From: Natronomonas marina
Lineage (GTDB): Archaea > Halobacteriota > Halobacteria > Halobacteriales > Haloarculaceae
DNA length: 64,000 nucleotides
Assembly: GCF_024298905.1 (NCBI RefSeq)
Contig: NZ_CP101154.1
Location: 3,622,932 to 3,686,931 of the forward strand
Direction: 5' to 3'
Under the pieces are notes generated by a model. It made no database searches and had not been told where the DNA came from. It saw nothing but the letters and a program-made list of their open reading frames with translations. Below are positions 11,194-15,991 of this stretch, piece after piece (positions within the stretch are counted from its first letter, which is position 1; each line of letters begins with the position of its first letter). Made by a program: the position numbers and the translations under genes.

Positions 11194-13230
11194 ATGAACG
11201 ACACTGGGGGACCGGCGGCTCGCGTGCTGTTCGTCACCGAACGGCCGGCCCGGTGGCGGGGGGCGCGAGCCGCGCTGGAAGCCCGCGACGGCCTCTCGGT
11301 AGCCGTCGCCGAGGGCGTTCCCGACGGGCGCATCGCTCCCGATGTCGACTGCGTGGTCGGAATCCACGACGACGCCACGGACGGACTGGCGTTGCTGGAG
11401 GCCGTCCGGGAGTTGCGGCCGTCGCTCCCGTTCGTTCTGCTTTCGGGAGTCGACGACGGCCGGGTCGCAAGCCGGGCCGTCTCGGCCGGCGTCTCGGAGT
11501 TCGTCCCGGCGTTGGACCCCGGCGCGGAGGACCTGCTGGTCGACCGCGTCGAGGGTGCCGTCGCCGAGCGGCGCCCCGCCCGCGACGGCGGCAGCGTCCC
11601 GATGCCCATCGACGACGTCGGCATCCGGGAGGAACTCCGGCTGAAGGAGCGCGCCATCGACGAGGCGCCGGTCGGCATCACCATCACCGACCCGGACCGC
11701 CCGGACAACCCGATGATATACATCAACGACGCCTTCGAGGAGCTGACGGGCTACGACAAGGCGGAGGCAGTGGGACGGAACTGCCGGTTCCTCCAGGGCG
11801 AGGACTCCGACGGGGAGGCCATCGACGCGATGCGAGAGGCGGTCGACGAGGGGGAGCCTGTCTCCGTCGAACTGCTGAACTACCGGCCGGACGGCGAGCC
11901 GTTCTGGAACAAGGTCGACATCGCGCCGGTCCACGGCCCCGACGGCGAGGTGACCAACTTCGTCGGCTTCCAGACGGACATCACCGACCGCAAGGAGGCC
12001 GAGATGGAGGCCAGGCGGCGCCGCGAGGAACTGGAGCACCTGCTCGTTCGCATCGACGGTCTCCTGCAGGACGTGACCCGGGAACTGGTACAGGCCGGCT
12101 CCCGCCCGGAGATAGAGCGCGCCGTCTGTGAGCGCGTCGCGGCCGACGACACCTACGAGTTCGGCTGGATCGGCGCGCCGGACTACGCCACCGAGACGAT
12201 CGTCGCCAGCGCACAGGCCGGCGAGTGGTCGCCCACCGAGGAAGCGCTCGCGGCCGACCTCTCGGACGAGGAGGGAGGGCCGACGGTGGCCGCCTACCGA
12301 ACCGGCGAAATCCAGGTCGTCGGGGGAAGCGAGGATCTCGCCGACCTCGCCGCGAGGACGCCGTGGCTCGATGCCGACGACCTCGGCGGAGTCGCCGCGA
12401 TTCCGCTGTCGTACGGCGAGACGACCTACGGCGTGTTGACGCTGTACACCACCGACGGGGCGGCGCTGAACGAACACGAGATGGTGGTCATGGCGGCGCT
12501 GGGGCGGGCGGCGGGGACGGCCATCAACGCCCTCGAGCGGGGCCGGATACTCGCCTCCGACAGCGTGACCGAACTCGTCCTCGAGACGACCGACAGCGAC
12601 CTCTTCTTCGTCGAGCTATCGAAGGAGACCGGCTCGTATCTCGAGTTCGACGGGTCGGTCCACCGCGACGACGGCTCCGTCCTGACGTTCTTCACGACCG
12701 ACGCCGACGCCGAGGCGGTCCGGGACGTCGCGGCCGGCTACCCCGACATCGAGTCGGCCAGCCCCATCCACGAGTTCGACGACGCCACGCTGTGGGAGTT
12801 CGGCCTCGCCAACGCCTCTATCACGGCGACGCTGGCCGAGCGCGGCGTGAAGATCAGTTCGATAACCGTCGCCGACGGCACCGCCGAGATCTCGGTAGAG
12901 CTCCCGAAGGAGAACGAGGTGCGGGCCATCGTCGAACTCGTCCGCGAGCGGTACCCCGACACGAAGATAGCCGCCCACCGCGAGCGCGAGCGGCCGCCAC
13001 AGACCCGGCGCGGCTTCGTCGCCGACCTCGAGGAGCGGCTCACCGAACGGCAGCTGACGGCGCTGCGGAAGGCCCACGTCAGCGGCTACTACGAGTGGAA
13101 CCGCTCGGTCACCGGCGAGGAACTGGCGACGTCGATGGGCATCGACCGCTCGACGTACCACCAGCACCTCCGGGCCGCCGAGCGGAAGCTGACGGAGGCG
13201 TTCTTCGAGCGGGCGGTCACCCACGGCTGA
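11194..13230 (+). CDS. bat: Bat-type bacterio-opsin activator with LOV, GAF and HTH_10 domains
   Basis: 678 residues. Domains in order: a degenerate response-regulator-like part (about 5-115), a PAS/LOV domain (about 150-270), GAF (about 295-445), the Bat-associated domain (about 455-610) and a C-terminal HTH_10 (about 620-672, TSMGIDRSTYHQHLRAAERK). The PAS core contains NCRFLQ with C197, plus N229, N239 and Q260. These are the photoactive cysteine and flavin contacts of LOV domains, at the same spacing (+32, +42, +63) as in plant phototropin LOV2. Bat activates bop and the retinal-synthesis genes in Halobacterium, and its position beside blh, crtY and bop supports the same role. The open frame begins at 11137, but the ATG at 11194 has a TATA element 27 nt upstream and starts directly with the receiver-like domain. 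It converges with blh, the two genes overlapping by 14 nt. Confidence 0.92.
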   Translation: MNDTGGPAARVLFVTERPARWRGARAALEARDGLSVAVAEGVPDGRIAPDVDCVVGIHDDATDGLALLEAVRELRPSLPFVLLSGVDDGRVASRAVSAGVSEFVPALDPGAEDLLVDRVEGAVAERRPARDGGSVPMPIDDVGIREELRLKERAIDEAPVGITITDPDRPDNPMIYINDAFEELTGYDKAEAVGRNCRFLQGEDSDGEAIDAMREAVDEGEPVSVELLNYRPDGEPFWNKVDIAPVHGPDGEVTNFVGFQTDITDRKEAEMEARRRREELEHLLVRIDGLLQDVTRELVQAGSRPEIERAVCERVAADDTYEFGWIGAPDYATETIVASAQAGEWSPTEEALAADLSDEEGGPTVAAYRTGEIQVVGGSEDLADLAARTPWLDADDLGGVAAIPLSYGETTYGVLTLYTTDGAALNEHEMVVMAALGRAAGTAINALERGRILASDSVTELVLETTDSDLFFVELSKETGSYLEFDGSVHRDDGSVLTFFTTDADAEAVRDVAAGYPDIESASPIHEFDDATLWEFGLANASITATLAERGVKISSITVADGTAEISVELPKENEVRAIVELVRERYPDTKIAAHRERERPPQTRRGFVADLEERLTERQLTALRKAHVSGYYEWNRSVTGEELATSMGIDRSTYHQHLRAAERKLTEAFFERAVTHG

Positions 13231-14245
13231 GGCCGGCCCAGACGCCCTCCCGGAGGTCCATCCACGTCACGACGGCGACGTGCGGCAGCGTCAGGACGGC
13301 GACGAATACGAGATACAGCGCCGCCAGTTCCGCCGGCGTCGAGGGCGTGGCCGGCACGAGGGCGCCGAACCCGACGAGGAGCACGAGCGACAGCGCGGTC
13401 AGCGGCGCGGCCTCGCGGGCGAACCGCCGGAGGCCCGCCCCGACGGTCGCCGTCTCGCCGTCGGCGGCCGCGACCCGCAGGACGTGCCGCAGCGAGTGCC
13501 AGACACAGAAGTAGACTCCGACCGCGACGAGCGGCGGTACGGCGAGGAAGAACGTCCACAGGAGTGCGGTCTCGCCGGCGTCGACCCGCCAGCCGCGGGT
13601 CGCGCCCGCCTGCCGGTAGCCGGCTGCGAGCGTCCCGACGGTGACCGCGAGGAAGGCCGCCCCGCCGACCAGCCGCGTTCCCGGCGCGAACAGCCACGTC
13701 ACGGCCAGGTCCGCGCCGAACAGTTCGACCCACGTCCCGACGACCGCCCGGTAGCGGCCCGGGAACGCGACGAGCGGGACGAACATCGGCAGGCCGCCCC
13801 GGACCACGAGCGTCGCGGCCCGTAGCGGCCGCGACCGGAGGTGCTCGGCGCCGACGAAGGCCACGAGGGCGTGGACATCGCCCTGCCCCCAGTGGAACCA
13901 CGTCACGGCGACGAACAGCAGCGCCGCGGGGACGGGCGCGGTCAGCCACAGCACCGCGTAGGCACCGCCGGCCAGCAGGTAGAGTGCCCCGACCAGCGCC
14001 ATGGACTCGGGCAGCGAGCGACCGCCCAGGCGGGCGGGAACGAGGTAGTCGACCGCGCCGTGGGGCAACCCCAGGACGACGACGCTGGCCGCGAGCGGCA
14101 GGTACCGGAGCGTCGGGCCGGGGGCGACGCCGGCCACCGCCGAGACGGCCGACAGGGCGACGACGACGCCACAGACCGCCCAGGCGGGGCGGGTGGCGAC
14201 CCGGTCGAAGGCCGCCCGCGCGTGGGCGGTTGCGGTCACCTCCAT
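13217..14245 (-). CDS. blh: Brp/Blh-type beta-carotene 15,15'-dioxygenase
   Basis: 342 residues, polytopic membrane protein. Family signatures are visible: LGLPHGAVDYLVP, WFHWGQGDVHAL, YFCVWHSLRHV and LPHVAVVTWMD. The histidines in these blocks fit the iron ligands proposed for Brp/Blh. The enzyme cleaves beta-carotene into two retinal molecules, the chromophore of the opsin at 15178. The start at 14245 overlaps the end of crtY by 10 nt; the open frame extends to 15043, but that extension lies over crtY in another frame and is not coding. The terminal 14 nt overlap the 3' end of bat on the opposite strand. Confidence 0.92.
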   Translation of the reverse strand: MEVTATAHARAAFDRVATRPAWAVCGVVVALSAVSAVAGVAPGPTLRYLPLAASVVVLGLPHGAVDYLVPARLGGRSLPESMALVGALYLLAGGAYAVLWLTAPVPAALLFVAVTWFHWGQGDVHALVAFVGAEHLRSRPLRAATLVVRGGLPMFVPLVAFPGRYRAVVGTWVELFGADLAVTWLFAPGTRLVGGAAFLAVTVGTLAAGYRQAGATRGWRVDAGETALLWTFFLAVPPLVAVGVYFCVWHSLRHVLRVAAADGETATVGAGLRRFAREAAPLTALSLVLLVGFGALVPATPSTPAELAALYLVFVAVLTLPHVAVVTWMDLREGVWAGLSRG

Positions 14246-15030
14246 CGGTCCATCACCCACCGGAACAGCACCAGTCCCTGGACGACGAACAGGTTCGTCA
14301 CCGCGAAGAACAGCGCCTCCTCTATCGGCAGTCCGAGGATGGCCAGTCCGGTCGTGTGTTCGGCGGAGATGTGCCAGATGCCGGTCGCGATGGCGATGCG
14401 GTCGACGACCCAGAGGTAGACGGTCGGGACGGCGACCCCGACCGCGAGCACGCGCCGCTGGTGGTACAGTTGCGGGGCACCGACGACCCACTGGAGGAGG
14501 AGGACGGGCGCGCTCCAGGCGAGGATGGCGCCGAGGTACAGCGTCGACGGCGTCGACAGCAGCGCTAGGCCGGCGACGCCGAGGCCGACGGCGACGGCGC
14601 CGGCGAGCAGTCGCGGGGCGACCGACAGCGCCTCCCGCCTGACGAGCGAGCCGAGGTCGCCGCCGCGCAACAGGCCCGGTTCGGGCCACCCCTCCCGGAG
14701 CGTCAACTGGCCGAGCCACAGTGCCGTCAACACCGGCTGTAACACGAAGAAGAGGTACTCGCCGAGCGGGGCCAGCCAGAGGTGCACGAGCGTGCGGCCG
14801 TCGCCGTAGCCCCAGACGCCCCGCGAGATGAGGTAGTTGTCCCACGGCGTCGTGTAAACCACCGCGAGCAGGGTGACGACGGCGACGCCGACCCAGTAAC
14901 TCGACCCGCCGACCGACCAGACGGTCCGGCGCGGCGTGCGGGTCCGGGTGACCACCGCCGCGGCCGCCAGCATCGACAGCGCCGGGACGAGGAAGGCGAC
15001 GTGGAACTGCAGGTACGAGGGGCCGCTCAC
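14236..15030 (-). CDS. crtY: lycopene beta-cyclase (archaeal CrtYcd type)
   Basis: 264 residues, about seven membrane helices made of two related lycopene-cyclase halves. Signatures are VYTTPWDNYLI near residue 63 (PWDN motif), EYLFFVLQPVL and PIEEALFFAVTNLFVVQG. It converts lycopene to beta-carotene, the substrate of Blh. Two consecutive GTG codons stand at 15033 and 15030. I choose 15030 because it overlaps the stop of the small ORF at 15027-15173 (GTGA), the coupling pattern seen elsewhere in this genome. It lies in an apparent operon bop - small ORF - crtY - blh. Confidence 0.92.
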   Translation of the reverse strand: MSGPSYLQFHVAFLVPALSMLAAAAVVTRTRTPRRTVWSVGGSSYWVGVAVVTLLAVVYTTPWDNYLISRGVWGYGDGRTLVHLWLAPLGEYLFFVLQPVLTALWLGQLTLREGWPEPGLLRGGDLGSLVRREALSVAPRLLAGAVAVGLGVAGLALLSTPSTLYLGAILAWSAPVLLLQWVVGAPQLYHQRRVLAVGVAVPTVYLWVVDRIAIATGIWHISAEHTTGLAILGLPIEEALFFAVTNLFVVQGLVLFRWVMDRWR

Positions 15031-15173
15031 CACGGTCGGTCACGGGTCGTCGGTCCGACCCGCGCCGGCGTCGCCGGCGCCCCGATGTGCGGTCCGCTGT
15101 CGCGGCTGTCGCTGTCGTCGCGGCTGTCGTCGCCCGATTCCGCCGCGCGTCCGGCGAGTGGTGTCGTCGTCAT
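15027..15173 (-). CDS. 48-residue acidic protein between bop and crtY
   Basis: ATG at 15173, four bases after the bop stop, and TGA at 15029-15027 overlapping the crtY GTG start (GTGA). The reading frame therefore fills the bop-crtY gap exactly. The product starts MTTTPLAGRAAESGDD and continues with a run rich in Asp, Ser and Arg (DSRDDSDSRDS), then a Pro/Ala/Gly tail ending DRPW. No hydrophobic segment and no recognised family. Small proteins near bop in Halobacterium (for example Brz and Brb) are known regulators, but I see no similarity to judge that. Its precise fit between two genes, rather than composition, is the evidence that it is translated. Confidence 0.6.
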   Translation of the reverse strand: MTTTPLAGRAAESGDDSRDDSDSRDSGPHIGAPATPARVGPTTRDRPW

Positions 15174-15177
15174 GGTG

Positions 15178-15936
15178 TCAGTCGGCGGGGCGTCCCGTGT
15201 CCGTCGCCCGGTCGGTCGCCGCCGCCGCGTCGTCGAGCGCCTCGTCGCTCGACAGGAGGACGTACCCGAACCCGAGTTTCGCGGTCAGATCGAGGACCAC
15301 GAAGCCGGCCGTCTCGACGACGGGGCCGGTCGCGCCGAGGCCGCCGGTGCCGGCCAGCCACCAGACGGGATAGCAGAGCCAGGTGACCGCCACGAGGTTC
15401 CGGAGGGTCCGGAACGTCGACCGCAGTGCCGCCGACAGCGGGGCGGCCCGCGCCGTGAGCGGCCCGAACAGGTAGTACAGAAGCGAGAGCAGAACGCCCG
15501 TCGAGACGGCCCACCAGACCAGCGGTTCCCCGGCGGGCGCGTAGACGCCGGTGGCCGTCGATAGCGTCGCCAGCACGCCCGTGACCACCATCAGGCCATC
15601 GAGGCCGACGAGGACGGCGAGTTGGCGTCGCGTCGCGCCGGCCAGCAGGCCGAGGCCGACGAACAGAAGCGGCGTCGTGAACATCCAGTCTGTGTAGCGC
15701 GCCCAGTACACCTGGGTCGGGCGGCCGCCGAGTTCGACGGCGGTGACCCCGAACCCGACCGCCATCGCGAGGTAGTTCACGAACGCGGTGGCGGTGGCGA
15801 AGACGACGACGACGTAGAACTCCCGGCGCCGACGGTCCTCGACGCCGCGGCCGTCCGAAAGGAAGTACAGGGTGCCCACCAGCATGCCGACCGCCCCGAG
15901 CCACAGGCACACCTGCTCGGCTCCAGGGGTCGGCAT
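15178..15936 (-). CDS. bop: bacteriorhodopsin-like microbial rhodopsin lacking Asp96
   Basis: 252 residues, seven helices. The retinal Schiff-base lysine is K220 (VLDLTAKLGFG), with the counterions D83 (WARYTDWMFTTPLL; D85 in bacteriorhodopsin) and D216 (D212). R80, W84, T87, D113, W186, Y189, P190 and E208 (E204) are also conserved. The cytoplasmic proton donor D96 is replaced by G94, and E194 of the release group by G198. The sensory-rhodopsin threonine before the lysine is absent (Ala as in bacteriorhodopsin), and no transducer gene is adjacent. It is therefore most like a light-driven proton pump, but with a missing donor that should slow reprotonation; a signalling role cannot be excluded. 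First gene of the operon that also makes its retinal. Confidence 0.93.
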   Translation of the reverse strand: MPTPGAEQVCLWLGAVGMLVGTLYFLSDGRGVEDRRRREFYVVVVFATATAFVNYLAMAVGFGVTAVELGGRPTQVYWARYTDWMFTTPLLFVGLGLLAGATRRQLAVLVGLDGLMVVTGVLATLSTATGVYAPAGEPLVWWAVSTGVLLSLLYYLFGPLTARAAPLSAALRSTFRTLRNLVAVTWLCYPVWWLAGTGGLGATGPVVETAGFVVLDLTAKLGFGYVLLSSDEALDDAAAATDRATDTGRPAD

Positions 15937-15963: not shown

Positions 15964-15991
15964 CAATGAATCGCTTACCAAACTGGTTGGG
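15964..15991 (-). promoter_or_regulatory. bop promoter: TATA-like element and Bat-type upstream activating site
   Basis: ACCaaactggTTgGG on the plus strand at 15977-15991 matches 11 of 13 defined positions of the Halobacterium Bat UAS as I remember it (ACCcnactagTTnGG). It lies 41-55 nt upstream of the bop ATG, close to the published position of the UAS in Halobacterium (about -52 to -39). A weak TATA-like attcattg (complement of 15964-15971) is centred near -31. The site is in the opposite orientation to bop but is nearly symmetric (CCAA...TTGG). Confidence 0.6.

Follow-up and report, generated by a model that had tools for sequence, protein, structure and literature searches.

A LOV-type Bat regulator retaining the photoactive cysteine at a rhodopsin locus of Natronomonas marina, a candidate blue-light receptor and activator in one chain

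In Halobacterium salinarum, bop is under the control of the activator Bat (PMC3184054). Direct light sensing by Bat is a question dating from 2001, when a light input to the H. salinarum protein was proposed (Baliga 2001, as related in PMC4682037). The activity of the bop promoter is enhanced by light and requires Bat, Brz, and Brb, and Bat was described as a flavin-containing protein (Tarasov 2011, PMC3184054). H. salinarum Bat (VNG1464G/OE3101R) has the PAS–GAF–BAT–HTH_10 organization of the protein analyzed here and likewise adjoins retinal and rhodopsin genes, whereas its photoactive position is occupied by His instead of Cys, and the two proteins are 38% identical. The LOV domain of Halorubrum hochstenium Bat (BAT-LOV*), a Pro form, was characterized in vitro (Yee 2015, PMC4682037). 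This protein also has a receiver–LOV–GAF–HTH organization and a flavin-binding LOV fold, but Pro replaces the Cys of our protein, photoreduction is inefficient, and no adduct is formed. In the same study, a direct light response of Bat was "suggested", not established, and a Cys-less redox ancestor was raised as a possibility. The Bat proteins of H. salinarum and Halorubrum are poor tests of light sensing because both lack the cysteine.

LOV proteins with the cysteine have been described from haloarchaea as well. The sections of Losi 2014 (PMC4844311) considered here list 167 archaeal LOV proteins, give the HTH-fused share of the halobacterial ones as 30%, liken one LOV–HTH architecture to Bat, and note the absence of the cysteine from H. 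salinarum Bat. The LOV–HTH proteins in them belong to the same architecture class as our Bat and carry the reactive Cys; the treatment in those sections is at the sequence level only (sequence lists and a distance tree) and contains no analysis of promoter elements or of Cys loss. ALovD-1, a canonical haloarchaeal Cys-LOV, photocycles at 3 M salt, but its host is a PAS/histidine kinase protein and not Bat (Valle 2025, PMC12202551). YtvA of Bacillus subtilis and plant phototropin LOV2 have the pocket residues and the fold in common with our Bat, whereas their output is a STAS domain or a kinase instead of GAF–BAT–HTH_10. A light input to Bat had thus already been proposed and Cys-bearing Bat-like LOV proteins catalogued, and the additions made here are the pattern of Cys loss, a genome-specific promoter element, and a correction about bop. 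These three points were not found in the literature searched (most subscription journals lay outside its scope), nor was any report of flavin, a photocycle, or light-dependent DNA binding for a Cys-type Bat.

The window, which is the whole stretch of 64,000 nucleotides analyzed from N. marina, encodes a Bat protein with the following features.
11194–13230, plus strand: LOV-type Bat regulator, 678 aa (open frame; Pfam PAS_9, GAF_2, BAT, and HTH_10)
11218–11583, plus strand: N-terminal receiver-like domain, residues 9–124 (AlphaFold2 β/α pattern; homolog alignment)
11641–12003, plus strand: LOV domain, residues 150–270 (YtvA_fam, PDB LOV matches, and Foldseek)
11782–11784, plus strand: codon of C197, the adduct-forming cysteine (aligned to the YtvA cysteine)
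11833–11835, plus strand: codon of R214, the second flavin-phosphate arginine, at Cys+17 (sequence)
11878–11880, plus strand: codon of N229, flavin contact (sequence; invariant in the homolog alignment)
11908–11910, plus strand: codon of N239, flavin contact (sequence; invariant in the homolog alignment)
11971–11973, plus strand: codon of Q260, the signal-transducing glutamine (sequence; invariant in the homolog alignment)
11983–12093, plus strand: long helix, residues 264–300, a LOV-to-GAF linker of the J-alpha/coiled-coil type (AlphaFold2 secondary structure)
12103–12525, plus strand: GAF domain, residues 304–444 (GAF_2, 1.4e-11)
12559–13020, plus strand: BAT domain, residues 456–609 (PF15915, 3.1e-44)
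13039–13194, plus strand: HTH_10 DNA-binding domain, residues 616–667 (PF04967, 3.1e-20)

An earlier note on this DNA had described a complete LOV domain with C197, N229, N239, and Q260, fused to GAF and HTH_10. All four residues are present at the conserved LOV places, C197 lying in GRNCRFLQG (motif GXNCRFLQ), and the phosphate Arg (R214) can be added to them. The offsets from the Cys claimed in that note (+32, +42, and +63) all agree with what we take to be the numbering of plant LOV2; alignment with YtvA confirms +32 and +42, and at +63 the YtvA loop is two residues shorter. NCBIfam YtvA_fam matches residues 151–287 with E = 9.8e-48, a domain hit that does not reach the cut-off for whole proteins. 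The top matches among solved structures are LOV photoreceptors (YtvA and phototropin, E down to 4.2e-33). Because of these matches, the resemblance to known LOV domains is far beyond chance. In a Foldseek search, the LOV part of the AlphaFold2 model showed the PAS/LOV fold and matched crystal structures of photoactive LOV domains (8qi8, TM 0.92; 9vf8, 0.92; 3t50, 0.90), which are CrPhot LOV1, MrLOV, and Brucella LOV. Among 27 diverse Bat homologs with a mean column identity of 47%, no substitution occurs at N196, Q201, N229, N239, or Q260, and C197 is nearly invariant. The presence of a canonical and complete LOV domain ahead of GAF–BAT–HTH_10 in one protein is strongly supported.

Pfam assigned PAS, GAF, BAT, and a C-terminal HTH_10, and the AlphaFold2 model gives the order receiver-like, PAS/LOV, helix 264–300, GAF, BAT, and HTH. 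Its mean pLDDT of 82 and pTM of 0.39 indicate that the domains are reliable and that their mutual arrangement is not. The receiver-like domain had been overlooked in the earlier note. In the alignment, a residue other than Asp occupies the phospho-acceptor position, where Asp is found in several homologs, and the domain is therefore probably a pseudo-receiver. The same genome encodes a second Cys-LOV (GENCRLLQG) in a long multi-PAS protein (L006, G000:C1:121184–121597), which is 55% identical to the Bat LOV domain.

The neighboring genes and the candidate promoter element are as follows.
13217–14245, minus strand: brp/blh, β-carotene 15,15'-dioxygenase, retinal synthesis (PF15461, 8.3e-77)
14236–15033, minus strand: lycopene cyclase domain protein (TIGR03462, 3.6e-40)
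15178–15936, minus strand: bacteriorhodopsin/cruxrhodopsin-like rhodopsin with Asp85, Thr89, and Gly96, lacking the proton donor (PF01036; PDB 4pxk, 2.1e-85; alignment)
15976–15991, minus strand: UAS-like palindromic element CCCAACCAGTTTGGTA, probable Bat site, ending ~40 bp before the rhodopsin ATG

Bat is thus linked to a rhodopsin and to retinal synthesis genes, which lie downstream of it in the order brp/blh, lycopene cyclase, and rhodopsin and converge with it, an organization shared by Natronomonas relatives. The three minus-strand genes probably form an operon. The description of Bat as lying "beside bop" holds in that a rhodopsin gene is linked, two genes away, but not in the identity of that gene. 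In the alignment, Asp85, Thr89, and Asp212 are kept, and both Asp96 and Glu194 are replaced by Gly, so that the bacteriorhodopsin triad Asp85/Thr89/Asp96 is incomplete. The canonical DTD bacteriorhodopsin is encoded 1.27 Mb away (C1:2368275), and a halorhodopsin is the third rhodopsin of the genome. In the three closest relatives of the window rhodopsin, position 96 is Ala and position 194 is Asn, and in each case there is an additional rhodopsin whose score resembles that of the canonical type. Possible roles of the Gly96 protein are those of a slow pump and of a photosensor; the large ORFs in its vicinity include no transducer gene that was noticed.

Linkage was surveyed at 112 LOV-Bat loci with enough flanking sequence. 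A rhodopsin gene lies within 7 kb at 54 of them, and a rhodopsin, brp, or crtY gene at 63. Control of rhodopsin is not the universal role of LOV-Bat, because 48 of the surveyed loci encode a Cys-Bat in a neighborhood that contains neither a rhodopsin nor a brp or lycopene cyclase gene. Rhodopsin-less Cys-LOV Bat-like loci were seen in Natrialbaceae and Haloferax (L137, L141, L153, L158, L161, L166, and similar loci), and the Cys-LOV Bat-like gene of Natronorubrum bangense adjoins an aldehyde ferredoxin oxidoreductase gene.

The UAS-type element before the window rhodopsin has the form ACC-N2-ACTAGTT-N-GGT, which is located ~53–58 bp before the start codon of linked rhodopsins. It resembles what we take to be the H. 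salinarum bop UAS consensus (Baliga and DasSarma 1999). The chance expectation of a CCCAACCAGTTTGGTA-type element in the window is 0. An element score of at least 9/13 was obtained in the expected zone of 39 of 49 promoters (shuffled mean, 7.6). In the whole 4-Mb genome, CCNNACNNGTTNGGTA has two exact matches, one before each of the two proton-pump-type rhodopsins, the window one and the distant canonical bacteriorhodopsin, and the reversed-pattern control has 0. There is some circularity in recovering the pattern at rhodopsin promoters, since it was derived from them; what is independent is its scarcity across the genome together with the outcome of the reversed-pattern control. A search of 16 related genomes gave 24 sites (control, 3), and 15 of these precede a rhodopsin gene of the same strand by 55–170 bp. 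A related element, ACCATACTGATTGGGT, precedes the rhodopsin of a close H. salinarum relative (L231). Action of Bat on the linked rhodopsin locus is supported because a UAS-like element precedes that rhodopsin, and Bat is most likely the protein that would bind it. A one-mismatch search of the genome cannot delimit a wider regulon, as its matches, 56 compared with 10 for the control, are mostly GC-rich background.

A similar element also precedes an EMC6_arch gene (PF19094) by ~80–94 bp, in the same genome, where it has a mismatch (L327, G000:C1:3464182–3464581), and in the four nearest relatives (L328–L330 and L356). EMC6_arch is the archaeal homolog of a membrane-protein insertase subunit, and co-regulated insertion of rhodopsin is possible. 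As a general Bat target the gene was dismissed: among the 30 genomes examined (28 of 30 loci were recovered in the final oriented search), the element is confined to these five.

The earlier note had called for a survey of the cysteine in other haloarchaeal Bat proteins, and homologs were gathered at the level of the family and of the class and from named genomes. Among ~159 sequences with a recognizable LOV motif, the residue at the photoactive position is Cys in 136, Pro in 15, His in seven, and Tyr in one; the sample was picked by similarity to a Cys-bearing query, which biases the Cys percentage upward. The motif is NHRFLQG in Bat of H. salinarum DSM 3754 (L151), in a close relative (L201), in Halobaculum saliterrae, and in the second Bat of Halohasta salina. 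The Pro clade, probably Halorubrum and its relatives, has NPRFLQG or NPR[LI]LQG. In both the His and Pro proteins, the remaining flavin residues are kept. A tree was built from the GAF–BAT–HTH part alone, independently of the LOV columns, by a quick search in which the outgroup was not cleanly separated; the His sequences are united with support 100 and the Pro sequences with support 95, each group as a single branch amid Cys sequences. Because each clade is a single branch among Cys relatives, the ancestral cysteine of Bat was probably lost at least twice independently. Related elements are present in the Cys, His, and Pro lineages, and for this reason the DNA target seems, judging from these promoters, to predate the replacement of the sensor residue. 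Whether loss of the cysteine tracks the type of the adjacent rhodopsin was also considered, and no correlation emerged: DTD rhodopsins adjoin Cys, His, and Pro forms alike, and halorhodopsins adjoin members of both the Cys and the Pro group. The lone Tyr protein has a degraded motif, NYQFLRG (L142, 6422–8626), and is encoded in the same locus as a halorhodopsin; it is possibly a third loss. Four Bat-type proteins (L087, L088, L089, and L090) fall inside the LOV-Bat tree and have sequence without the LOV motif at the LOV position.

We propose that Cys-LOV Bat combines a flavin-binding blue-light receptor and a DNA-binding activator in one chain, which binds the element and through which blue light modulates rhodopsin genes; on the sequence evidence, we regard this as probable. 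Flavin binding, the photocycle, binding of Bat to the element, and both the existence and the sign of light control are what we infer. Bat would be a cytoplasmic protein, holding flavin in the LOV pocket in the dark. Upon blue-light illumination, the C197–flavin adduct would form and Q260 would flip. This change would be relayed via helix 264–300 to GAF, BAT, and HTH_10 and would alter activation at elements of the ACC-N2-ACTAGTT-N-GGT type. The core predicted targets are the linked rhodopsin and the distant canonical bacteriorhodopsin. The LOV domain may bring in light as an input besides low oxygen, the control described for H. salinarum.

The main rival to light modulation is that the LOV domain of Bat is mainly a flavin redox or oxygen sensor, as proposed for the Cys-less Halorubrum protein, with blue light playing a minor part and the cysteine only tuning the response. 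The Pro-type LOV* binds flavin and changes its shape upon reduction (Yee 2015, PMC4682037), H. salinarum Bat is an activator of the oxygen response (PMC2253796, PMC3184054), and the Cys-less clades, as described above, retain the rest of the flavin pocket. The cysteine is nevertheless retained in 136 of ~159 LOV-Bat proteins across deep divergence, as would be expected if most lineages were under selection for adduct chemistry, and the Cys-less forms are nested within the tree and look derived; we consider this rival rather unlikely. It is highly improbable that the LOV domain is vestigial, that is, folded but photochemically unused. The receiver domain of the same protein does look degenerate, and the literature searched holds no experiments on a Cys-type Bat, but the near-invariance of the pocket residues among the 27 homologs speaks against such disuse.

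The LOV domain could also be photoactive while a paralogous HTH_10 protein binds the element, the neighboring rhodopsin lying outside Bat control. The genome encodes several other BAT/HTH_10 proteins, including a Bat-like one without LOV (L002, 36% identity), which are competing candidates for the same element and were counted against our preferred explanation, and the 48 unlinked LOV-Bat loci point in the same direction. On the other hand, the linkage to rhodopsin is conserved at 54 of 112 loci, and the 10-kb surroundings of the three rhodopsin genes contain none of the paralogs listed. We judge involvement of a paralog to be quite improbable. Returning to light-modulated Bat, a broader version would hold that the Cys-LOV form with direct blue-light control of rhodopsin is ancestral and still the commonest in haloarchaea, the His lineage of H. 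salinarum and the Pro lineage of Halorubrum being separate derived losses in which a photoreceptor became a redox sensor. We put this forward tentatively, at somewhat short of an even chance.

For the question of direct light sensing by Bat, the window locus offers an intact LOV domain, a well-defined candidate element, and two predicted targets. The Bat tree bears on the idea, raised in 2015, of an ancestral Cys-less redox sensor, as the Cys-less state looks derived within Bat. Most Bat proteins surveyed keep the light-reactive cysteine that was lost in both of those studied in the laboratory. If light control by Cys-LOV Bat is ancestral, the textbook picture of bop as dominated by oxygen would stem from atypical species.
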